From positions 1 to 35,547 of the forward strand of contig JAPOYG010000145.1 of assembly GCA_026706755.1 (NCBI GenBank): a stretch of DNA of 35,547 nt, in the 5' to 3' direction. The notes under the pieces are model-generated. The model saw only the letters and a list, made by a program, of their open reading frames with translations, was not told the origin of the DNA and searched no databases. Position numbers and translations under genes: made by a program. Each line of letters starts with the position of its first letter. The stretch's first letter is position 1. Of this stretch, positions 19,735 to 30,927 are shown piece by piece. Source of the DNA: Acidobacteriota bacterium (GTDB lineage Bacteria > Acidobacteriota > Vicinamibacteria > Vicinamibacterales > UBA8438).

Positions 19735-21072
19735 ATGAACATCACGAAGCTGTACGCGGGGCTGGCGACGGTCGCCGTCCTTGCCGGCCTGGCCGGTCCC
19801 GCCGCGGCGGCGGAGGCGGAGACGCCCACCTTCACGCGGGACGTCGCGCCCATCTTCCAGGCCAAGTGCGAGGCCTGCCACCGTGCCGACTCCATTGCGC
19901 CCATGTCGCTGGTGACGTACCAGGAGGCTCGTCCCTGGGCGCGGTCCATTCGGGAACGCGTCTCGACGCGGCAGATGCCGCCGTGGCACATCGACCGCAC
20001 CGTCGGCATCGCGGAGTTCAAGAACGACCGCTCGCTCACCGACGCGGAGATCGACACCGTCGTACGGTGGGTCGACGGGGGCGCGCCGCAGGGCGATCCG
20101 GCCGACCTGCCGCCTGCGCGCGAGTGGCCCGACGCGTCGAAGTGGTACTTCGCGGAGCGGTTCGGCGGCCCGCCCGACCTCATCGTCCGCTCGGCCCCGT
20201 TCACGATGCCCGCGGAGGCGAACGACGCGTGGTGGAAGCCGCAGAGCGAGACCGGCCTGACCGAGCCGCGCTGGGTGCGGGCCATCGAGTTGCGGCCGGC
20301 CACGGTCGCCGGCCGGCGCATCACCCACCACGCGATCGCGCGCCTCGAGCAGGAGGAGACCGACCCGCTGCTGCGCAACGCGAACGCGACCGACGACGAC
20401 GATCCGCTCAACAACTCCGGGCTCTTCATGGAGTGGGCGGTCGGTAAGCAGGGCGAGCTGATGCGCCCCGGCAGCGGCAAGCTCATGCTTCCCGGGTCGC
20501 GCATCATCTGGGACGTTCACTACTCGGCGGCCGGCGAGGAGATCACCGACCACGTCGAGCTGGGTATCTACTTCTACCCGCGCGACGAGGAGCCGGACCA
20601 CCGTCAGGTCCTGCACCTGATGGGCGCAACCGGCGGGGGAGCGCTCGACATCCCGCCGCACAGCGTCACGGTGACCGAGGGCTTCTTCCCGCTGCGCCGG
20701 GCCGCGCGCATCGAGAGCTACCAGCCGCACATGCACCTGCGAGGCAAGGCGATGTCGATGGAGGCGATTCTCCCCACCGGCCGCGTCCGGACCCTGAGCC
20801 ACGTCGGCGACTTCAACTTCAACTGGCACAACGCCTACGTCTACGCCGACGACGCCGCGCCGCTGCTGCCGCGCGGCACGGTGATCAAGGTCACCGCGTG
20901 GCACGACAACACGGCGGCCAACCGGGCCAATCCCGATCCGAACGTCTGGGTCGGGTACGGGGACCGGACCGTAGACGAGATGGCGCACGCCTGGGTCAAC
21001 GTCACCTACTTCACGGACGACGACTACGAGGCGGAGCTCGAGAAGCGCGCGGCGGGGACGGACGACAATTGA
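19735..21072 (+). CDS. Secreted c-type cytochrome fused to a PHM-like (copper type II, ascorbate-dependent monooxygenase) domain
   Basis: Signal peptide; heme motif 'CEACH'; PHM-like copper ligand motifs 'THHAI', 'IWDVHYS', 'QPHMHLRGK', 'TVDEMAHAWVNVTYF'. Confidence 0.85.
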   Translation: MNITKLYAGLATVAVLAGLAGPAAAAEAETPTFTRDVAPIFQAKCEACHRADSIAPMSLVTYQEARPWARSIRERVSTRQMPPWHIDRTVGIAEFKNDRSLTDAEIDTVVRWVDGGAPQGDPADLPPAREWPDASKWYFAERFGGPPDLIVRSAPFTMPAEANDAWWKPQSETGLTEPRWVRAIELRPATVAGRRITHHAIARLEQEETDPLLRNANATDDDDPLNNSGLFMEWAVGKQGELMRPGSGKLMLPGSRIIWDVHYSAAGEEITDHVELGIYFYPRDEEPDHRQVLHLMGATGGGALDIPPHSVTVTEGFFPLRRAARIESYQPHMHLRGKAMSMEAILPTGRVRTLSHVGDFNFNWHNAYVYADDAAPLLPRGTVIKVTAWHDNTAANRANPDPNVWVGYGDRTVDEMAHAWVNVTYFTDDDYEAELEKRAAGTDDN

Positions 21073-21971
21073 CGGGACGCGCGCACGCGGTGCCGGCGTC
21101 TTCCCCTGCGTCGGGCGCCCTGCCGTTCGTTCTGCTGGCGGCCATGCTGCTGGCGGCGTCCGGTGCGGGGGCGCAGCCGCCACGGGCACCGTTGCCTCTC
21201 GAGCCGGAGGGCGATCGCGGAGAGGCGATCTACCCGGCCCTGGAAGGCTGGTACCGCAACGCCGACGGGAGCCACACCATCCTGCTCGGCTACTTCAACC
21301 GCAACGCGGTACCGGTCGACCTGCCGATCGGTCCGGACAACCGCATCGAGCCCGGCGGTCCGGACCTCGGACAGCCGACGCACTTCCTGCCGCGGCGCGC
21401 CTGGGGCGTGTTCGCGATCCGCGTGCCCGCCGACTTCGCCGAGCGTCGGCTGACCTGGACGCTGGTCGCGAACAACCAGCGCGCCGAGGTCACCTTCTGG
21501 CTGAATCCCCCGTACTTCGTCGATCCGTTCCTGAACCGGGCGAACGGCAACCGGCCGCCGCTCCTGCGCGTGGCCGACGGAGGGCCGGAGCTCCAGGGAC
21601 CGCCGCAGGGCGTGGCGGCGTCCCTCCGGGCGGTCGCCGGGACTCCCGTCCGACTGACCGCGTGGGCGAGGGACACGGAGCTGGAGAACCCGCCGCCGCC
21701 CCGCGCCCGCAGCCGCCCGCGGCCTCCGCTCACGGTCACCTGGCGCAAGCATCGCGGCCCGGGCGACGTCACCTTCGACGAGGCGGCGTACGAGTACGAG
21801 AGCCTCGCGGGCGGGGAGGCATCGACGATGGCGACCTTCGCGGAGCCGGGCGCCTACCGTCTCACCGTAACCGCGAACGACATCTCGGGGAACGGAGGGG
21901 GTGGCGACCAGTGCTGCTGGACGACCGCCCACGTCGACGTCGTCGTCGAGCCGGCCCCGCTGTCGCCGTGA
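21069..21971 (+). CDS. Predicted secreted protein with a C-terminal PKD/Ig-like segment, function unknown
   Basis: Signal-like 'ALPFVLLAAMLLAASGAGAQPP'; 'VTWRKHRGPGDVTFD...ATFAEPGAYRLTVTANDISGNGG' PKD-like. TTG 21069 overlaps the upstream TGA; GTG 21090 is an alternative. Confidence 0.75.
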   Translation: MTGRAHAVPASSPASGALPFVLLAAMLLAASGAGAQPPRAPLPLEPEGDRGEAIYPALEGWYRNADGSHTILLGYFNRNAVPVDLPIGPDNRIEPGGPDLGQPTHFLPRRAWGVFAIRVPADFAERRLTWTLVANNQRAEVTFWLNPPYFVDPFLNRANGNRPPLLRVADGGPELQGPPQGVAASLRAVAGTPVRLTAWARDTELENPPPPRARSRPRPPLTVTWRKHRGPGDVTFDEAAYEYESLAGGEASTMATFAEPGAYRLTVTANDISGNGGGGDQCCWTTAHVDVVVEPAPLSP

Positions 21972-22042
21972 TTTCGTGCTTGCCTCCGGAGGGGGCGAAG
22001 TGGCACGCTTGGGGCGCGATAGCGAAACGTCAGGAGGCATAC

Positions 22043-23263
22043 ATGATCCGGAAGTTCGGCTGTCTGATGGTGGTGGCGCTCCTCGCGGTCACCGTGGCGT
22101 GCGGTGGGGGCCCCATTCCCGGAGTGCAGGCGCAGGGCTCGGAGCTGCCCCCGACCACGGGCGAGGGCGCGCCGACGTTCGAGGTGGACCCGTTCTGGCC
22201 GAAGCCGCTGCCGAACAACTGGCTGCTCGGCTCGACGATCGGGGTCGCGGTTGACTCCGACGACCACGTCTGGATCGTGCACCGCGGCAACCTCGGCAAC
22301 AACGAGATTCCTGCCGCCCTCGATCCGCCGCTCGCGGCAGAGTGCTGCTTCCCGGCGCCGCCGATTCTGGAGTTCGATTCGGAAGGCAACCTGCTGCAGC
22401 ACTGGGGCGGCCCGGGCGAGGGCTACGACTGGCCCGAGTCGAACCACGGCATCTTCGTCGACCACATGAACAACGTCTGGATCGGCGGCAACGGCGGGGA
22501 CGACTCGCACGCGCTGAAGTTCAGCCACAACGGCGAGTTCCTGCTGCAGATCGGCGAGGACGGTCACCCGGAACCGGATAGCAGCTCCACCACGCGCTAC
22601 TCGCGGGTGGCCAAGGTGGCCTTCGACGCCTCGGCGAACGAGGCGTATCTCGCGGACGGCTACGGCAACCGGCGGGTGGCGGTGGTCGACGGGGACAGCG
22701 GCGAGCTGAAGCGCTTCTGGGGTGCCTACGGCAACACGCCGAGCGACGATCCCTTGCCGCCGTACGACCTCGACGGCGCTCCGGAGCATGGCGCGGTCAG
22801 CAGCGACAAGTCCGGCGATCCGCAGTTCCGGAATCCCGTGCATTGCGCCGATCCGACGAACGACGGCCTGGTCTACGCCTGCGACCGTCCGGGCAACCGC
22901 GTGCAGGTGTTCGAGAAGGACGGGACGTTCGTCGAGGAGATCTACCTGCAGACGAAGACCCTCGGGGCCGGGGCGGTCTGGGACATCGCGTTCTCGACCG
23001 ATCCGGATCAGACCTTCGCCTACGTGGCCGACGGCATGAACGAGAAGGTCCACGTGCTGCGCCGCAAGCCGCTCGAGTACATCTACAGCTTCGGGAGCGG
23101 CGGCCGCATGGCGGGCCAGTTCTACGGCAACCACAGCATCGCCGTCGACTCGCAGGGCAACGTCTACACGACGGAGACCTACGAGGGGAAGCGGGTGCAG
23201 AAGTTCCGCTACACCGGCATGGGGAATCCCATGGGGGATGTCGGCGTTCCGCATCCGCAATAG
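22043..23263 (+). CDS. NHL-type beta-propeller protein resembling peptidyl-alpha-hydroxyglycine alpha-amidating lyase (PAL); predicted lipoprotein
   Basis: AGGAGG ribosome site 5' of ATG; repeated blades 'GVAVDSDDHVWIVHRG', 'HGIFVDHMNNVWIGG', 'YLADGYGNRRVAVVDGDSGELKRFWG', 'YACDRPGNRVQVFEKDGTFVEEI', 'HSIAVDSQGNVYTTETYEGKRVQKFR'. Confidence 0.85.
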   Translation: MIRKFGCLMVVALLAVTVACGGGPIPGVQAQGSELPPTTGEGAPTFEVDPFWPKPLPNNWLLGSTIGVAVDSDDHVWIVHRGNLGNNEIPAALDPPLAAECCFPAPPILEFDSEGNLLQHWGGPGEGYDWPESNHGIFVDHMNNVWIGGNGGDDSHALKFSHNGEFLLQIGEDGHPEPDSSSTTRYSRVAKVAFDASANEAYLADGYGNRRVAVVDGDSGELKRFWGAYGNTPSDDPLPPYDLDGAPEHGAVSSDKSGDPQFRNPVHCADPTNDGLVYACDRPGNRVQVFEKDGTFVEEIYLQTKTLGAGAVWDIAFSTDPDQTFAYVADGMNEKVHVLRRKPLEYIYSFGSGGRMAGQFYGNHSIAVDSQGNVYTTETYEGKRVQKFRYTGMGNPMGDVGVPHPQ

Positions 23264-23462: not shown

Positions 23463-23936
23463 ATGCGAAAGACCAGTGGGCTGTTGTTGTCGGCGGTGCT
23501 GCTCATCGCCGGGTGCGCGGAAGAGCCGGCGGGGCCGCCGCTCGACCTGCGCCACAACACGCGGGACCTCATGGCCGGGATGATCGACGCGTCCGCCGAC
23601 GCGCTCTGGGATGCCGTCGGGACGGTCTGGGACGAGAACGGGGAGCAGTACTGGCAGCCGGAGACGGAAGAGGACTGGCTCGCTGTGACGGGCGCCGCGA
23701 TGACGCTGGTCGAGTCGGGCAACCTGCTCATGCTCGGCGACCGTCCGCGTGACGACACGCAATGGATGAGCTTCTCCCAGGACATGATCGACGCGGCGTC
23801 GGTGGCGCTCGAGGCGGCGCAGGCGCGCGACCCGGATGGCGTCTTCGACAGCGGCGAAGTGGTCTACAACTCCTGCAACACCTGCCACAGCGTCTACTGG
23901 GTGGGCGACGAGCAGCGCGGTCGCGCCATCCAGTGA
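23463..23936 (+). CDS. Predicted lipoprotein c-type cytochrome (cytochrome c'-like, C-terminal CxxCH)
   Basis: 'LLSAVLLIAGCAEEP' lipobox; helical body; C-terminal 'VVYNSCNTCHSVYWVGDE'. Confidence 0.8.
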   Translation: MRKTSGLLLSAVLLIAGCAEEPAGPPLDLRHNTRDLMAGMIDASADALWDAVGTVWDENGEQYWQPETEEDWLAVTGAAMTLVESGNLLMLGDRPRDDTQWMSFSQDMIDAASVALEAAQARDPDGVFDSGEVVYNSCNTCHSVYWVGDEQRGRAIQ

Positions 23937-23956: not shown

Positions 23957-24230
23957 GCAAGCTCCTAGGACGGTGGGGGCTGGGGCCGACCCGGAGCGTG
24001 CGACGGGTTGGCGGCGCTAGGAGCTTGCGCCGCAGAACGCCAACGGAGTGCGTGCCGCGGCGCAGGCTCCTAGGACGGTGGGGGCTGGGGCCGACCCGGA
24101 GCGTGCGACGGGTTGGCGGCGCTAGGAGCTTGCGCCGCAGAACGCCAACGGAGTGCGTGCCGCGGCGCAGGCTCCTAGGACGGTGGGGGCTGGGGCCGAC
24201 CCGGAGCGTGCGACGGGTTGGCGGCGCTAG
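23957..24230. repeat. Tandem repeat, 105-bp unit, about 2.6 copies, with internal inverted repeats and CTAG punctuation
   Basis: GCTCCTAGGACGGTGGGGGCTGGGGCC... recurs at 23961, 24066 and 24171 (period 105) with apparently identical copies; CTAG at 23965, 24017, 24070, 24122, 24175 and 24227. Confidence 0.95.
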
Positions 24231-24706
24231 CGTTGGGAGAGGGTCGCGATCTCGGGGCTCGATTCGCGTTCGCAGAGAGCCGCGCGCGTTGCCGGCTCCG
24301 CCGGACCCGAAGGACGCCGGGCGACGTTGAGGAGATAGAGCCGATAGGCGCCCGGGTCGCGCCCCGGGTGGCCGCACAAGATAACCGCGTCCCCACGCGC
24401 GAGCGCGTCCCCCCGCACCCCGGCCCGTGAGAGCCGGTCGGCGGCGCGCCACTCCACGGCCCACGTGCGGGTGAGCCCGCGGTCGTCGGGGACACGAACG
24501 TGCAGGACGGAGTGCGGGTTCCCGAAGAGGAACGCCTCCACCTCGCCGTCGAGGACGATGGTCTGCTCTTCGTCGTAAATCTCACCGATTGCGTGGTGTC
24601 CTGCGGCCGGGGCACCGGGCGCCAGCATCTCGGGAGCCGGGCGGCCGGGCATTCCGGTCGCCGGCAGCAGAGAGGCGGCGATCAGAACGGGCAGCGTGCT
24701 CTTCAT
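24227..24706 (-). CDS. DUF6152 family secreted protein
   Basis: Signal peptide 'MKSTLPVLIAASLLPATGMP'; 'GHHAIGEIYDEEQTIVLDGEVEAFLFGNPHSVLHVRV...AVEWRA' resembles the DUF6152 pattern (HHxxxxxYD, NPH). Confidence 0.75.
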   Translation of the reverse strand: MKSTLPVLIAASLLPATGMPGRPAPEMLAPGAPAAGHHAIGEIYDEEQTIVLDGEVEAFLFGNPHSVLHVRVPDDRGLTRTWAVEWRAADRLSRAGVRGDALARGDAVILCGHPGRDPGAYRLYLLNVARRPSGPAEPATRAALCERESSPEIATLSQR

Positions 24707-24806
24707 GGGCCGTTCTCCACTTCTGCCGAGGGCGGGCTCTTCTCGCGACGGGGCGGTCGCCGGCGTGGCCGCCACGGGTCGGCCCGCAACCCGCCACCTG
24801 CAACCT

Positions 24807-24851
24807 ATCATAGTGCGCGGCGGCCTGTCCCTGTCTGAAGATCCCCTGAAG
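24807..24851 (-). promoter_or_regulatory. Putative response-regulator operator (CTTCAG-N5-CTTCAG) plus -10 TATGAT, DUF6152 direction; also between DUF6152 and the two-component genes
   Basis: Plus-strand CTGAAG at 24835 and 24846 (11-bp period); minus-strand TATGAT at 24812-24807, 22 nt away. Confidence 0.6.
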
Positions 24852-24893
24852 ATCCTGTCGCTCGCGCCCCGAGGGCCGTTATGCTCGACGGAA

Positions 24894-25640
24894 ATGCCAG
24901 CCGGCGAACACGGGTTCGAGGCGGCGGAGGGCATGGAGGCCACATCCGCAACGCAGCGGTTGCGCGCGCTGGTCGTCGAGGACGAGCCGAAGGTGGCGGC
25001 GGCCCTGCGGGAGGGGCTCGAAGGTGAAGGGTACGAGGTAGCCGTAGAGGGGTCCGGCGAGGCCGCGTTCTTCCGCCTGACCACCGACAGCTTCGACGTC
25101 GTGCTCCTCGACCTGCGGCTCCCGGGTCGGGACGGTATCGAGATCCTCTCGGCCGCCCGGCGGCGGGGTGTCGCGACGCCGGTCGTCGTGTTGACGGCGC
25201 GCGACACGCTGGAGGACAGGGTGATCGGCCTCGACGCGGGGGCCGACGACTACGTCGTCAAGCCGTTCGCCTTCGCCGAGTTGCTGGCCCGCATCCGCGC
25301 GGTCGTGCGGCGCGGCCGAACGGCCGAGCCCGCGCGCCTCGTGATCGACACCCTGGTCGTCGACCGCGTCTCGCGCCAGGTGACGCGCGCGGGCGAGGCG
25401 GTGGAGTTGACGGTGAAGGAATTCGACCTGCTGCTTCATCTGGCGCGCCACGCCCGACAGGTAGTTTCCCGCGACACGCTGGTCCGCGATGTGTGGCGGG
25501 AAACCTCCCGCAGCACGACGCTGGACAACGTGATCGACGTCCACGTGTCGCGCCTGCGGCGGAAGGTGGACACACAGCGGCCGGTCAAGCTGATCCACAC
25601 CGTGCGCGGCGTCGGGTTCGTGCTGCGGGAGGCCCAGTGA
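24894..25640 (+). CDS. OmpR/PhoB-family response regulator
   Basis: Receiver 'RALVVEDEPKVAAALREGLEGEGYEV...DVVLLDLRLPGRDGIEIL...VLTARD...GADDYVVKPFAFAELLARIRAVVRR' and winged helix 'LTVKEFDLLLHLARHARQVVSRDTLVRDVW...VDVHVSRLRRKVD...IHTVRGVGFVLR'. ATG 24933 is an alternative start. Confidence 0.95.
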   Translation: MPAGEHGFEAAEGMEATSATQRLRALVVEDEPKVAAALREGLEGEGYEVAVEGSGEAAFFRLTTDSFDVVLLDLRLPGRDGIEILSAARRRGVATPVVVLTARDTLEDRVIGLDAGADDYVVKPFAFAELLARIRAVVRRGRTAEPARLVIDTLVVDRVSRQVTRAGEAVELTVKEFDLLLHLARHARQVVSRDTLVRDVWRETSRSTTLDNVIDVHVSRLRRKVDTQRPVKLIHTVRGVGFVLREAQ

Positions 25641-27055
25641 GCGGCCGCTGGTTGCCGCGCACGCTTCGCGTCCGGCTCACCGCCTGGCACGTCGCCGTGA
25701 TGGTCGTCGTGCTCGCGATCTACGTGACCGCCGTCCTGCTGATCGTGGCGCGCAATGCCTCGCGCGCCCTCGACGCGCGCCTGCGCAGTGATTTTCGATG
25801 GGCCGCGGGGATGGCGCAGCGGGACTCCGACGGTGCCCTCTCGTGGTTCGAGGGCGACCCGTGGAGCGAGGACAGCCCGTGGCTGCAGGTGTGGACGAAC
25901 GACGGAAGACTGATCTACCGGACGGCGGTCGCCCGGCGCCTCCCGGTACCGGCGAGCGAGGCGTTGCTCGACCGCGCCGACGGACGCATCGTGTCGCTGC
26001 CCAGCGAGCCCGCGCCGTTCCGCGTGCTGGGGCGGCGCGTCACCCTCGGCGGAGAGCCGGTCATCGCGCAGGTGGGGCGGTCGGAGGCGCTCATGCGCCA
26101 GGAGATCGCCGAGCTGGCCTTCGTGCTCCTGCTGGGACTGCCGCTGAGCGTGGTGGCGGCCGGCCTCGGGGGCTACTACCTGGCCCGCCGGGCGCTGGCG
26201 CCCCTGGCGCGGATGACGGACCGGGCGCGTGCCATTACGGCGTCGCGTCTCGGCGAGCGCCTGCCCATCGACGACCCGCAGGACGAGCTCGGACGCCTGG
26301 CGGTCGTGTTCAACGAGACGCTGGGCCGCCTGGAGGCGTCGTTCACCGAGATGCGGCGGTTCACGGCCAATGTCTCGCACGAGTTGCGCACGCCCTTGAC
26401 CGCGATTCGCAGCGTCGGCGAGGTGGGCCTGCGCGAGCCTCGCGACGCAGCGTCGTACCGGGCGGTGATCGAGAGCATGCTCGAGGAGGCGGATCGGCTG
26501 AGCTGCCTGGTCGATCAGCTGCTGACGGTGTCCCGGGCCGACGGCGGCGAGGGCGCGCGCGCCGGCCGCATCGACCTCGCGGACCTCGCCGAGAACGTGG
26601 CCGCCCACCTGGGAGTGCTCGCCGAGGAAAAGAGCCAGTCGATGGTCGTCGTGCGAGACGCCGCACCTGTCTGCCGCGGCGATCAGGTCGTTCTGCGGCA
26701 GGCGCTGATCAACCTGGTGGACAACGCGATCAAGTACACGCCCGCGGGCGGCCGCATCGAGCTCAGGGTGGCCGCGACGGAGGGGGAGGCGCTCCTGGAG
26801 GTGAGCGACAACGGTCCGGGTGTGGCGGACCGGCACGCGCCGCGACTGTTCGACCGCCTGTACCGGGCCGGAGACGGCGACCGGACCGACGCCGGGACAC
26901 CGGTACCGGACACGGTCGGCGCCGGACTCGGCCTGGCGCTTGCCCGCTGGGCGGTCGAGGCCAATCATGGGCGCCTCAGCTACCAGCCCGCGGACGGCCC
27001 CGGGAGCATCTTCCGCATCGTCTTGCCGGAGCACGCACGTGACATTCACCCATGA
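25637..27055 (+). CDS. HAMP-domain sensor histidine kinase
   Basis: Two TM segments, HAMP, H-box 'FTANVSHELRTPLTAI', N-box 'LRQALINLVDNAIKYTP', 'GVGAGLGLALARW'-type G-box. GTG overlaps the regulator TGA (GTGA). Confidence 0.95.
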   Translation: MSGRWLPRTLRVRLTAWHVAVMVVVLAIYVTAVLLIVARNASRALDARLRSDFRWAAGMAQRDSDGALSWFEGDPWSEDSPWLQVWTNDGRLIYRTAVARRLPVPASEALLDRADGRIVSLPSEPAPFRVLGRRVTLGGEPVIAQVGRSEALMRQEIAELAFVLLLGLPLSVVAAGLGGYYLARRALAPLARMTDRARAITASRLGERLPIDDPQDELGRLAVVFNETLGRLEASFTEMRRFTANVSHELRTPLTAIRSVGEVGLREPRDAASYRAVIESMLEEADRLSCLVDQLLTVSRADGGEGARAGRIDLADLAENVAAHLGVLAEEKSQSMVVVRDAAPVCRGDQVVLRQALINLVDNAIKYTPAGGRIELRVAATEGEALLEVSDNGPGVADRHAPRLFDRLYRAGDGDRTDAGTPVPDTVGAGLGLALARWAVEANHGRLSYQPADGPGSIFRIVLPEHARDIHP

Positions 27056-27130
27056 GGCCGCCGCCGTGGTTCGAGAGTGGAGGAACAGGCGCGGGACCCT
27101 GAGCCCGCCCGTGAGCGGGGGCGGCCGGCA

Positions 27131-28708
27131 ATGACGCAAACGGTCCTCCGGGGGCTGATTCTGCTGCACCGCTACCTCGGGATTCCGCTCGGCGTGCTCT
27201 TCGTAGTCTGGTTCGCCTCGGGCATCGTGATGATGTACACGGGCGACATGCCTCGCCTGACGCCCGAACGGCAGGTGGAGCGGCGTCCGCCGCTCGACCT
27301 CGCCGGGGTCGCCCTGTCGCCGGCCGCGGCGGCTCGACGGGCGCTCCTCGCGCCGGCCCCGCGCCGCGCCCTGCTTCTGACGGTGCTCGATCGGCCGGCC
27401 TACCGCTTCGACGGAGTGACCGTGTTCGCGGACACCGGGGAGCGCCTGGGGAAGGTCGGGCCGGCGGCGGCCGTTCGGGTCGCGAGTCGCTTCGCCGGCC
27501 TGCCGCTCGATGCCGTCGAGCACGTCCGCACCCTGGACGAGCCCGATCAGTGGACGCTCGTGGAACGAGGGCGGCTTCCGCTGCACCAGCTTCGGGTCGC
27601 CGACGCGGCCGGCACCGTCCTCTACGTCTCGCCTCGCACCGGCGAGGTCGTCCTGGAGACGACCAGGCGCAGCCGGGCGCTCGCCTGGCTCGGTGCGATC
27701 CCGCACTGGTTCTACTTCACCGCACTCCGCACGAACCAGCCGCTGTGGTCCGCCGTCGTCGTCTGGACGGCGACCCTCGGATGCGTGCTCGCGGTGCTCG
27801 GTCTCGCCCTCGGCGTGACGCAGTTCCGGTGGCGCACGCGCAGCAAGACCGCGCGCTCGGGCCGCGCCGGACCGCGGATCCCGTACGCAGGCTGGATGCG
27901 GTGGCACTACCTGACCGGCGTGGTCTTCGGCGTGGTGACGCTGACCTGGGTCTTCAGCGGCCTGCTCTCGATGGAACCCTACGCCTGGACGAGGGCGCGC
28001 GGCCTGGAAGTGCCGCCGGATGCGTTGGCCGGGGGAAGGCTCGATCTCACGCGCTTCCCGCCCGTCGATCCGCAGGCGTGGGCACGACTTGCGGAGGGGC
28101 GGGTCGTCAAGGAGATCGAGCTCCTGCGCGTTCAGGACGATCCGTACTACCTGATCCGCACGGTGCCGGGGCCGGATGGCGAGGCCTCGCCGCCGGGCTC
28201 CGGCCCGGCGGACCTGCTCGCGGCGGCCGACACGCTCGGGGTGCGAAGCGAGCCCTTCGACGTGGAGGCGCTGCTGGCGCGGTTGACGGCGGCGATTCCC
28301 GGGACGCCGATCGTCGCCTCCGAGCTCCTGCACGACTACGACGCCTACTACTACGCCCGGCGGAGCGCGGCGCCGCTGCCCGTGCTGCGGGTGAAGCTCG
28401 GCGACCCGCAGGAGACCTGGGTCTACGTCGACCCCGCACGAGGCAGGGTGGTCTCGAGCACACACCGGCTCGGCCGCGTCGAGCGGTGGCTCTTCAACGG
28501 CCTGCACAGCCTCGACTTCGCGTTCTGGTACGACCGCCGGCCGCTCTGGGACATCGGGCTCATCGTCCTGAGCCTTGGCGGCGTCGCATCGAGCGGCATC
28601 GGTCTCTGGATCGGCTGGGGCCGCGTGCGCCGGGCGATTGGTCGCGGCCTCCCGGCGCGGGCGGTTCGCACCGGGCGGGCGCGCGCGCGGGCTACTCCTC
28701 GTCGGTGA
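27131..28708 (+). CDS. PepSY-associated transmembrane protein
   Basis: 'LHRYLGIPLGVLFVVWFASGIVMMYTGDMPRLTPE...', 'MRWHYLTGVVFGVVTLTWVFSGLLSMEPYAW', C-terminal 'RWLFNGLHSLDFAFWYDRRPLWDIGLIVLSLGG'. Confidence 0.85.
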   Translation: MTQTVLRGLILLHRYLGIPLGVLFVVWFASGIVMMYTGDMPRLTPERQVERRPPLDLAGVALSPAAAARRALLAPAPRRALLLTVLDRPAYRFDGVTVFADTGERLGKVGPAAAVRVASRFAGLPLDAVEHVRTLDEPDQWTLVERGRLPLHQLRVADAAGTVLYVSPRTGEVVLETTRRSRALAWLGAIPHWFYFTALRTNQPLWSAVVVWTATLGCVLAVLGLALGVTQFRWRTRSKTARSGRAGPRIPYAGWMRWHYLTGVVFGVVTLTWVFSGLLSMEPYAWTRARGLEVPPDALAGGRLDLTRFPPVDPQAWARLAEGRVVKEIELLRVQDDPYYLIRTVPGPDGEASPPGSGPADLLAAADTLGVRSEPFDVEALLARLTAAIPGTPIVASELLHDYDAYYYARRSAAPLPVLRVKLGDPQETWVYVDPARGRVVSSTHRLGRVERWLFNGLHSLDFAFWYDRRPLWDIGLIVLSLGGVASSGIGLWIGWGRVRRAIGRGLPARAVRTGRARARATPRR

Positions 28709-29150
28709 CGCGGTCGGGATGCGCCGCCATCCAGGCCGTGACGGCGTCCACGATCTCCGGGACGTCTGCGAGGTGCCGGGTCAGGACGTCGTACAGCTCG
28801 GGCTCGGTCACTTCGTCGTACATGTGCACCAGCCGGTTTCGGTAGCGCGCCATGAGCACCAGCCGCTCGGCCTGGTCCGGAGACACGACGCCCACGTCTC
28901 CGAGTTGGCGCGCTACCTCGGCGTACTCGGTGGCGCCGCGCCCGAACGCTCTGGCCAGCACGTGGCGGGCGATATCGAGCAGCGCCTCGAGCGCGCGGCG
29001 GAGGTAGGACTCCGCGGCGGCGACCATGCGCGGGTCACGCTGAAACTCGCGGAGATCGTCGAGGGGGAGTGTCGCGATCCCGTCGAGCAGTCGATGGATC
29101 AGGGCGACCTTGTCGGCGACGACGGCGCGCCGGATCGGTCCCGGGGTCAT
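28692..29150 (-). CDS. HepT-like (DUF86) putative toxin/RNase
   Basis: 'MARYRNRLVHMYDEV' contains the RX4HXY motif; directly follows an MntA-like nucleotidyltransferase with ATGA overlap. Confidence 0.88.
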   Translation of the reverse strand: MTPGPIRRAVVADKVALIHRLLDGIATLPLDDLREFQRDPRMVAAAESYLRRALEALLDIARHVLARAFGRGATEYAEVARQLGDVGVVSPDQAERLVLMARYRNRLVHMYDEVTEPELYDVLTRHLADVPEIVDAVTAWMAAHPDRVTDEE

Positions 29151-29541
29151 CGTCGCGGCGAGAGGAGCAGCGCGCGGCGCTCGCGTTCGAACGGCAGGAG
29201 ATCCCCGGCCCGCCGCAACACGTACAGCTCGAAGAGGTCGGTTTCGAGCGGGTCGCGTGTGTAGAGCCGTTCACCGCGGACGACGGCTAGGGCCAGGTAG
29301 GCGCTCGCCCTCGACACATCGATCAGGTCGATCCGGTGGGGAGAGACCCGGTCGAGCATCTCTTCCAGCCGCAACGTGGCCTCCAGCCGTTGCCGCGCGG
29401 TGTACAGCACGCCCAGGTCGAGGTCGGCGTCCGGGTTCGCCTCGCCGTCGAGTCTCGAGCCGAAGGCATAGAGCGCGCGCACCGTCGGCCGACCTGCACC
29501 ACGGCGCACAGTCGCCCGACGAGCGCGGCCGGCAGCCCCAT
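29147..29541 (-). pseudogene. MntA-like nucleotidyltransferase antitoxin, apparently frameshifted near its 5' end (GSX10DXD frame intact from GTG 29509)
   Basis: 'YAFGSRLDGEANPDADLDLGVLY' = GSX10DXD; plausible N-terminus 'MGLPAALVGRLCAVVQ' from ATG 29541 lies in a different frame. Confidence 0.6.
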
Positions 29542-29644
29542 CCAGAGAGTATAGATACGGTTCCGGGTGAGAACGGCGACGTGTTCGGCGGTCGGGCCGC
29601 AGTGCCCGCTGCCGTCGGGCCGCGACATCCCGCCGTGACGCAGA

Positions 29645-29690
29645 GTTCAGCGAAACTTCAGTCTGCGACGGCACGCACCGCGGGTAGGAT
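29645..29690 (+). promoter_or_regulatory. Putative response-regulator operator (GTTCAG-N5-CTTCAG) plus -10 TAGGAT upstream of the di-heme enzyme gene
   Basis: GTTCAG 29645-29650 and CTTCAG 29656-29661 (11-bp period), 23 nt to TAGGAT 29685-29690. Confidence 0.5.
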
Positions 29691-29751
29691 GCGGGGTCGT
29701 GGTGCGGTGCGGAGTGCGCGCGAGCGCACCGGGAGCGGCAGCGAGGTGGTC

Positions 29752-30927
29752 ATGCGACGGAGAGCGATGGTCGGAGCCGTGGTCGTGGCAGCGGCGGTGA
29801 CGGGGCTTGCGGCGCAGGGGCCGGATGCCGACGGCTACGATTGGAAGTTGCCGCCCGGCGTGTCGCCCCCGCGACTGCCCCTCGACGCTCCGATGACGAG
29901 CGAGCGAGTGGAGCTGGGCCGGCATCTCTTCTACGACACGCGGCTGTCGGGGAACGGCACGCAGTCGTGCGCGACGTGCCACATCCAGGCCCTGGCCTTC
30001 ACCGACGGCCGTGCGCAGGGGCTTGGATCGACGGGCGAGCGCCACCCGCGCAGTGCGATGTCGCTCGTCAACGTAGCCTATCGGGACGCGTTGACGTGGG
30101 CGGACCCCACGCTGCATTCGCTGGAGGAGCAGGCGCTGGTCCCGATGCTCGGGACGGACCCGGTCGAGCTGGGGCTGTCGGGGCACGAGCCCCGCGTCTA
30201 CGCGGCGCTGGCCGCCTCGCCGGTGTACCAACGCCTGTTCGCGGCGGCGTTCCCTCCTCCGCCCCCCGCCGACGCGCACGAGGACGGCATCGAGTCGCTC
30301 GTCACGACCCGCAACGTCGCGCTCGCCCTGGCCGCGTTCCAGCGCTCGATCATCTCGTTCCGGTCGCCGTACGACCGCTATCGCTTCCACGGAGACGAGG
30401 CGGCGCTCACGCCTGCGGCCCGCCGCGGGATGGCGCTCTTCTTCTCGCGCCGGGCGCGGTGCGGCGGCTGCCACCTGGGCCATACGGTGTCGACCGCGAT
30501 CGGCCTCAATCTGGACGGGGGGTCGAAGGCCTCGACGAGCCCGCTGAGCGACCCGCCGGTGTTCCTGTTCCACAACACCGGTCTCTACAATCTGCCCGGC
30601 CGGATGCCGTACCCGGCCGACAACACGGGCAAGTACGCCCATACCGGGAAGCTGGAGGACGCGGGCCGCTTTCGCATTCCGACGCTGCGCAACGTGGCCG
30701 TGACCGCTCCCTACATGCACGACGGGAGCATCGCGGCGCTCGGTGAGGTGCTCGACCACTACGTGGCCGGCGGACGCGCGCCGAATCCACAGCAGAGCGA
30801 GTCGATCCAGCCGTTGACGCTGCGCGACGACGAGCGCCGCGACCTCATCGCGTTCCTCCAGAGCCTGACCGACGAGGCGCTGTTGCGCGACCCGCGCTGG
30901 AGCGACCCCTGGAGCGTCGATCCGTAA
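29752..30927 (+). CDS. Di-heme cytochrome c peroxidase/MauG superfamily enzyme (MbnH-like)
   Basis: 'RVELGRHLFYDTRLSGNGTQSCATCHIQALAFTDGRAQGLGSTGERHPRSAMSLVNVAYRDALTWADP', second heme 'CGGCHLG', 'FRIPTLRNVAVTAPYMHDGSIAALGEVLDHYVAGG'. Confidence 0.92.
   Translation: MRRRAMVGAVVVAAAVTGLAAQGPDADGYDWKLPPGVSPPRLPLDAPMTSERVELGRHLFYDTRLSGNGTQSCATCHIQALAFTDGRAQGLGSTGERHPRSAMSLVNVAYRDALTWADPTLHSLEEQALVPMLGTDPVELGLSGHEPRVYAALAASPVYQRLFAAAFPPPPPADAHEDGIESLVTTRNVALALAAFQRSIISFRSPYDRYRFHGDEAALTPAARRGMALFFSRRARCGGCHLGHTVSTAIGLNLDGGSKASTSPLSDPPVFLFHNTGLYNLPGRMPYPADNTGKYAHTGKLEDAGRFRIPTLRNVAVTAPYMHDGSIAALGEVLDHYVAGGRAPNPQQSESIQPLTLRDDERRDLIAFLQSLTDEALLRDPRWSDPWSVDP

Follow-up and report, generated by a model that had tools for sequence, protein, structure and literature searches.

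Two neighbouring genes of an Acidobacteriota bacterium, one PHM-like and the other PAL-like, raise the question of whether they form a bacterial counterpart of the two halves of peptidylglycine amidating monooxygenase, as a first-pass annotation of this DNA, made from the sequence alone, had suggested. The window, i.e., the whole stretch of 35,547 nucleotides that was analyzed, is a single contig of a genome of 5.8 Mb in 713 contigs. In it, four genes, herein A, B, C and D, follow one another in this order on the + strand, with genes for tRNA-Gly and tRNA-Cys upstream of A (Table 1). The start of B is ambiguous, and may be a TTG at 21069, which overlaps the stop codon of A, or a GTG at 21090. 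The proposed assignment of A to PHM and of C to PAL stood, but the conserved partner of A turned out to be B and not C; the importance of the intervening B, like the heme c domain of A, had been overlooked. As a whole, the locus is best explained, with good though not full confidence, if A is an exported copper monooxygenase of the PHM/DBM type, fused to a heme c domain, working with B as a partner, and multiplied within the genome.

Table 1. Features of the A to D region, in window coordinates; ligand roles are those predicted by alignment
Feature	Position	Strand	Description or evidence
Gene A	19735..21072	+	ORF, 445 aa; a signal-like N-terminus, then a c-type cytochrome and a PHM/DBM-like copper monooxygenase domain
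c-type cytochrome domain of A, ~residues 32-123	19828..20103	+	ligands conserved in 99/99; weak Cytochrome_CBB3 match
Heme ligands C45-x-x-C48-H49	19867-19881	+	CxxCH invariant, 99/99
Met81, putative axial heme ligand	19975-19977	+	invariant, 99/99
His198-His199, first two CuH ligands	20326..20331 (ITHHAI)	+	aligned to PHM H107/H108; 99/99
His262, third CuH ligand	20518..20520 (DVHY)	+	aligned to PHM H172; 99/99
Gln330, PHM Arg240 position	within 20722..20736	+	alignment; 89/99
His332, His334, CuM ligands (PHMH, 20728-20736)	within 20722..20736	+	aligned to PHM H242, H244; 99/99
Met416, CuM ligand (DEM, 20980-20982)	within 20980..20994	+	aligned to PHM M314; 99/99
His418, Trp420, PHM Asn316 and Tyr318 positions	within 20980..20994	+	alignment; 85/99, 89/99
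Gene B	21069..21971	+	~300 aa, exported (predicted), two Ig-like beta-sandwich domains
Gene C	22043..23263	+	406 aa, NHL propeller, PAL-like active site (alignment)
Gene D	23463..23936	+	157 aa, exported (predicted), one CxxCH, weak cytochrome c' resemblance

Between D and the next gene lies a tandem array (23957-24230; 2.6 copies of a 105-bp unit, 99% matches), directly adjoined by a gene for a DUF6152 family protein (24227-24733, − strand; E 1.3e-18). On the + strand, the translations of 24696-27055 read as a response regulator and a sensor kinase (a reading of the translations, without a family search), 27077-28708 codes for a PepSY_TM protein with a weak resemblance to cytochrome b561, and 29110-30927 for a MauG-like di-haem cytochrome c peroxidase. 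That the redox proteins of 24696-30927 lie close to A, a candidate heme-copper enzyme, is possibly a coincidence.

Gene A codes for a PHM/DBM-like copper protein

The animal relatives of A are the enzymes that finish peptide hormones (PHM) and that make noradrenaline (DBM). Conservation in A was assessed over 99 aligned homologues, and a set of 22 divergent members was compared with the Pfam and NCBIfam models. The copper motifs that the first-pass annotation had pointed out in A were confirmed at their places and go beyond chance: the six copper ligands of PHM/DBM are invariant in all of the homologues, down to about 33% identity, and in register with those of rat PHM in a profile alignment, although the overall sequence similarity to PHM is marginal. 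Together with Cys45, Cys48, His49 and Met81, they make up ten metal-ligand residues that do not vary among these 99. The names used here for the copper ligands are those of PHM (PMC6123673).

A search of the PDB with the A profile retrieved human dopamine beta-hydroxylase (E 0.0077), and the Pfam model Cu2_monoox_C (PF03712) was matched by five of the 22 divergent members (best E 2.7e-7). Thus, some members are already in Cu2_monoox_C and the family link itself is known to databases. Searched alone against Pfam, the A protein of the window matched no Cu-monooxygenase model, and the NCBIfam models gave zero matches among the 22 members. A single-sequence search of the PDB returned only weak or spurious matches (GAPDH, for example) and was set aside on the strength of the profile and of the fold. 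The AlphaFold model of A (pLDDT 83.5) has the two-domain beta-sandwich fold of PHM; in a Foldseek search with this model, ranks 1-31 were all rat PHM or human DBH (E 1e-10 to 3e-8; TM 0.53-0.61, normalised by the PHM chain). A is thus PHM/DBM-like in its copper ligands, as aligned, and in its fold, as modelled, and presumably binds copper.

A c-type cytochrome domain fused to the copper domain

The N-terminal part of A combines, in a protein with a signal-like N-terminus, a CxxCH motif and a distal Met, the hallmarks of an exported c-type cytochrome, and the Pfam model Cytochrome_CBB3 was matched, weakly, by all of the 22 divergent members. PHM depends on copper and on ascorbate (PMC5461114). 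A fused heme c would be a natural replacement for ascorbate, so that a likely route runs from a periplasmic cytochrome to the heme c, then to CuH and on to CuM; probably, then, the heme c of A supplies the electrons that ascorbate gives to PHM. In the mechanism that we propose, the heme c, held by Cys45, Cys48, His49 and Met81, would take electrons from periplasmic cytochromes and hand them to CuH (His198, His199 and His262), and CuM (His332, His334 and Met416) would bind O2 and hydroxylate a C-H bond of an external substrate.

Gene B is the constant partner of A

At 78 of the best 80 A loci in other records, B is no further than 1.2 kb from A; at the remaining two, the contigs end 46 and 156 bases past the matched part of A. 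Counted from B in four whole genomes, an A was no more than 600 bp away for 50 of 52 B genes and shared the strand for 47 of these, with B mostly downstream of A and sometimes upstream. Of the 17 distinct B loci in the window genome, 16 have an A next to them. Even a distant acidobacterial family (f45) has a single B about 110 bp from one of its ~16 A genes, with only the N-terminal domain matched. Seen from A the pairing is not constant: in the same four genomes, no B was detected next to 29 of the 79 A genes. B is A's constant and apparently obligate partner in the sense that it is hardly ever found away from an A.

The model of B (pLDDT 86.8) comprises two Ig-like sandwiches behind a signal-like N-terminus. 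Searches against Pfam, PDB profiles and Foldseek found a generic Ig/PKD-like resemblance and no specific structural relative; profile matches of B to a "Tet4 variant" were discarded, the per-domain E-values being above 2. Most of the invariant residues (D66, N79, N91, D99, Q102, P103, F106 and W130) are concentrated in the first domain, which is therefore probably the core of the protein. From its linkage to A, B would probably bind the substrate or dock the enzyme. A common third neighbour was sought by clustering the ORFs that flank A and B at about 98 loci, and nothing but A, B and their shadow frames came up widely; the next most recurrent neighbours are TonB-receptor-, ABC-transporter- and sigma-factor-like (as read from translations), at about 9-12 loci each. 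At one further locus (L148:6084-8534), C is followed directly by B, with no A detected nearby.

Matches to A number 27 in the window genome, fragments included, and 14-30 per genome in ten relatives. A and B probably form the functional unit, of which each genome would have some 14-30 variants, presumably acting on different substrates. In a wider sample of the phylum, A is present in 23 of 119 Acidobacteriota genomes, the copy numbers there being lower bounds; both A and C occur in eight genomes, A only in 15 and C only in four. A genes 67-76% identical to that of the window were also seen in four records (L030, L042, L049 and L050) titled as Pseudomonadales, Bifidobacterium breve, Cyanobacteria and Acidimicrobiia; these are likely mislabelled or misbinned MAG contigs, and gene transfer is also possible.

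Gene C has a PAL-like active site with an altered calcium site

The resemblance of the NHL protein to PAL, noted in the first-pass annotation, held over the whole propeller, which the C profile aligned with rat PAL (3fvz; E 4e-16, hhalign probability 98; the rat sequence used agrees with the PDB chain). In this alignment R81, H135, Y207, H267, R282 and H364 of C fall on R533, H585, Y654, H690, R706 and H786 of PAL, which we take, following the roles and numbering of the PAL structure, to be the three zinc His, the catalytic Tyr and two Arg. As these PAL signature residues are conserved in 37 of 37 C proteins, the view that C is merely a generic NHL propeller was ruled out. The position of the PAL calcium ligand Asp787 is occupied by Ser365 (Ser in 32 of the 37). 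As judged by alignment, then, C has a PAL-like active site in which the calcium site is altered.

Genes A and C are coupled in some modules

The expectation that A and C would be conserved neighbours was borne out only in part. Outside the window, this A-B-C arrangement was seen only at L021, L022 and L023, near-identical loci from close relatives. In other genera, C orthologues of about 80% identity lack an A in their vicinity, and some of them keep D: in L133, L135 and L137 C and D adjoin without A, possibly as a separate pair of a PAL-like and a cytochrome c'-like protein. Among the best 80 A loci, C lies near A in three, and in four relatives one of 30 C genes is near an A, against 1.07 expected, which is the level of chance. 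Moreover, in the window C is preceded by a gap of 71 bases and has its own ribosome-binding site. Hence, the chances are about even that the C of the window is an unrelated neighbour, A-B and C-D being two modules that adjoin by happenstance in this genus; against this stand the retention of the A-B-C order in several close relatives, two of which also have D, and the A-C pairs conserved elsewhere.

In six further genomes, six of 50 C genes are no more than 3 kb away from an A, where 1.95 would be expected, and in eleven genomes pooled, with the window excluded, such proximity was counted eight times against about 3.3 expected (P ~0.02, a rough value that ignores shared ancestry and that includes a genome, G020, added after A-C adjacency had already been seen there). 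A compact B-A-C operon, with gaps of about 60-115 bp, is present at two loci of one genus (L171:4874-8350 and L172:5268-8779), the A and C proteins of which are 84-86% and 77-80% identical, respectively, to those of an adjacent A-C pair elsewhere in the window genome (L009/L154, contig C558), so that this linkage, distinct from that of the window, extends over two genera. The ORF that precedes the operon (L171:1150-4695) matched nothing in Pfam and is possibly not a real gene. A second A-C linkage is common to L175 and L177, from two other genera. The idea that A-C linkage is purely a matter of chance, drawn from the four-genome count, was dropped in view of these conserved pairs. In some modules, then, a PHM-like gene does go together with a PAL-like one, but the pair in the window is not the best example.

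Such coupling bears on an alternative in which the two enzymes work one after the other on a substrate that is not a peptide: A would hydroxylate the carbon adjacent to an amide or amine nitrogen, and the carbinolamide would then be split by C, a PAL-like zinc lyase (oxidative N-dealkylation). Consistent with it are the excess in proximity, the orthologous linkages in L009/L171/L172 and L175/L177, and the retention of the PAL residues in ten linked C proteins, with the one exception of Arg81, a Leu in L178. However, the excess is modest, with the reservations on its P value given above, C is missing from the vicinity of most A copies, and each gene can abound without the other (15 A and no C in G036; eight C and no A in G054). 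As a general account this sequence is rather doubtful; it may be limited to the C-linked copies, and for some copies it is possible. A hand-over from A to C would be only possible for the pair in the window and more likely for the conserved B-A-C operon of L171/L172, which is the best candidate for sequential PHM-like and PAL-like chemistry.

Substrate-pocket residues of PHM are replaced in A

In PHM, Arg240, Asn316 and Tyr318 hold the carboxylate of the peptide. In A, these positions are taken by Gln, His and Trp (Table 1), and by Gln, His and His in the A of the B-A-C operon; in the profile alignment, human DBH likewise has Gln at the Arg240 position. With the carboxylate-binding residues replaced, a peptidyl-glycine hydroxylase is unlikely, and A is probably not one. 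The conserved Gln/His/Trp trio suggests that the main branch of the family shares a kind of substrate other than that of PHM, with variation in other paralogues. Peptidyl-glycine is disfavoured as the substrate, and some copies of A and C may still work in sequence.

The unlikeness of these pocket residues to those of PHM, and the fact that A has no known activity, could also indicate that A is not an oxygenase at all, but a copper- and heme-binding protein for electron transfer, sensing or copper storage. The Met of CuM is required for catalysis by PHM, and the invariance of all six ligands of both copper sites, this Met included, points to the same copper chemistry in A, making a non-oxygenase role improbable. 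Weakest of all, and very improbable, is the view of A and C as a peptide-amidating pair, in which a C-terminal glycine would be hydroxylated by A and the product then cleaved by C to the amide and glyoxylate: both active-site signatures, the proximity of A and C in the window and a B-A-C operon across two genera speak for it, but the carboxylate residues are replaced both in the window and in the operon, the pair of the window is restricted to close relatives, and A and C are each widespread without the other.

Significance and comparison with known systems

Electron supply to the two distant copper sites of PHM is still discussed, and a large bacterial branch with a fused electron donor would offer a recombinant model of it. 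The A family would also expose a large unassigned oxidative capacity in the Acidobacteriota, along with a candidate prokaryotic setting for PAL chemistry. In a 2020 review of metalloproteins, PHM and DBM are among the eukaryotic cuproproteins and absent from the prokaryote column (PMC7435645). No published description of a heme c-copper fusion, of the A-B pair or of bacterial PHM-like enzymes was found in a search of the open-access literature, which is weak evidence of novelty. The most far-reaching proposal, that of a secreted, cytochrome-driven bacterial counterpart of PHM and PAL, in which A and B, in dozens of A copies, and a PAL-type lyase in B-A-C operons carry out the oxidative N-dealkylation of an environmental substrate, is a tentative one that we consider unlikely as it stands.

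Set against rat PHM (1phm), A is alike in its fold (Foldseek E 1e-10), in the register of the six copper ligands and in being exported, and unlike it in the fused heme c, in the partner B and in the absence of the Arg240/Asn316/Tyr318 trio, at about 13% identity. In DBM, a DOMON domain stands at the N-terminus and the electron donor is ascorbate. With the human enzyme (DBM/DBH, 4zel), A shares the fold, the ligands and the Gln at the PHM Arg240 position, but has a heme c where DBM has the DOMON domain. C, in turn, matches rat PAL (3fvz) in the NHL propeller and in the register of the three zinc His, the Tyr and the two Arg, and differs from it in the replacement of Asp787 by Ser365 and in being a separate protein.
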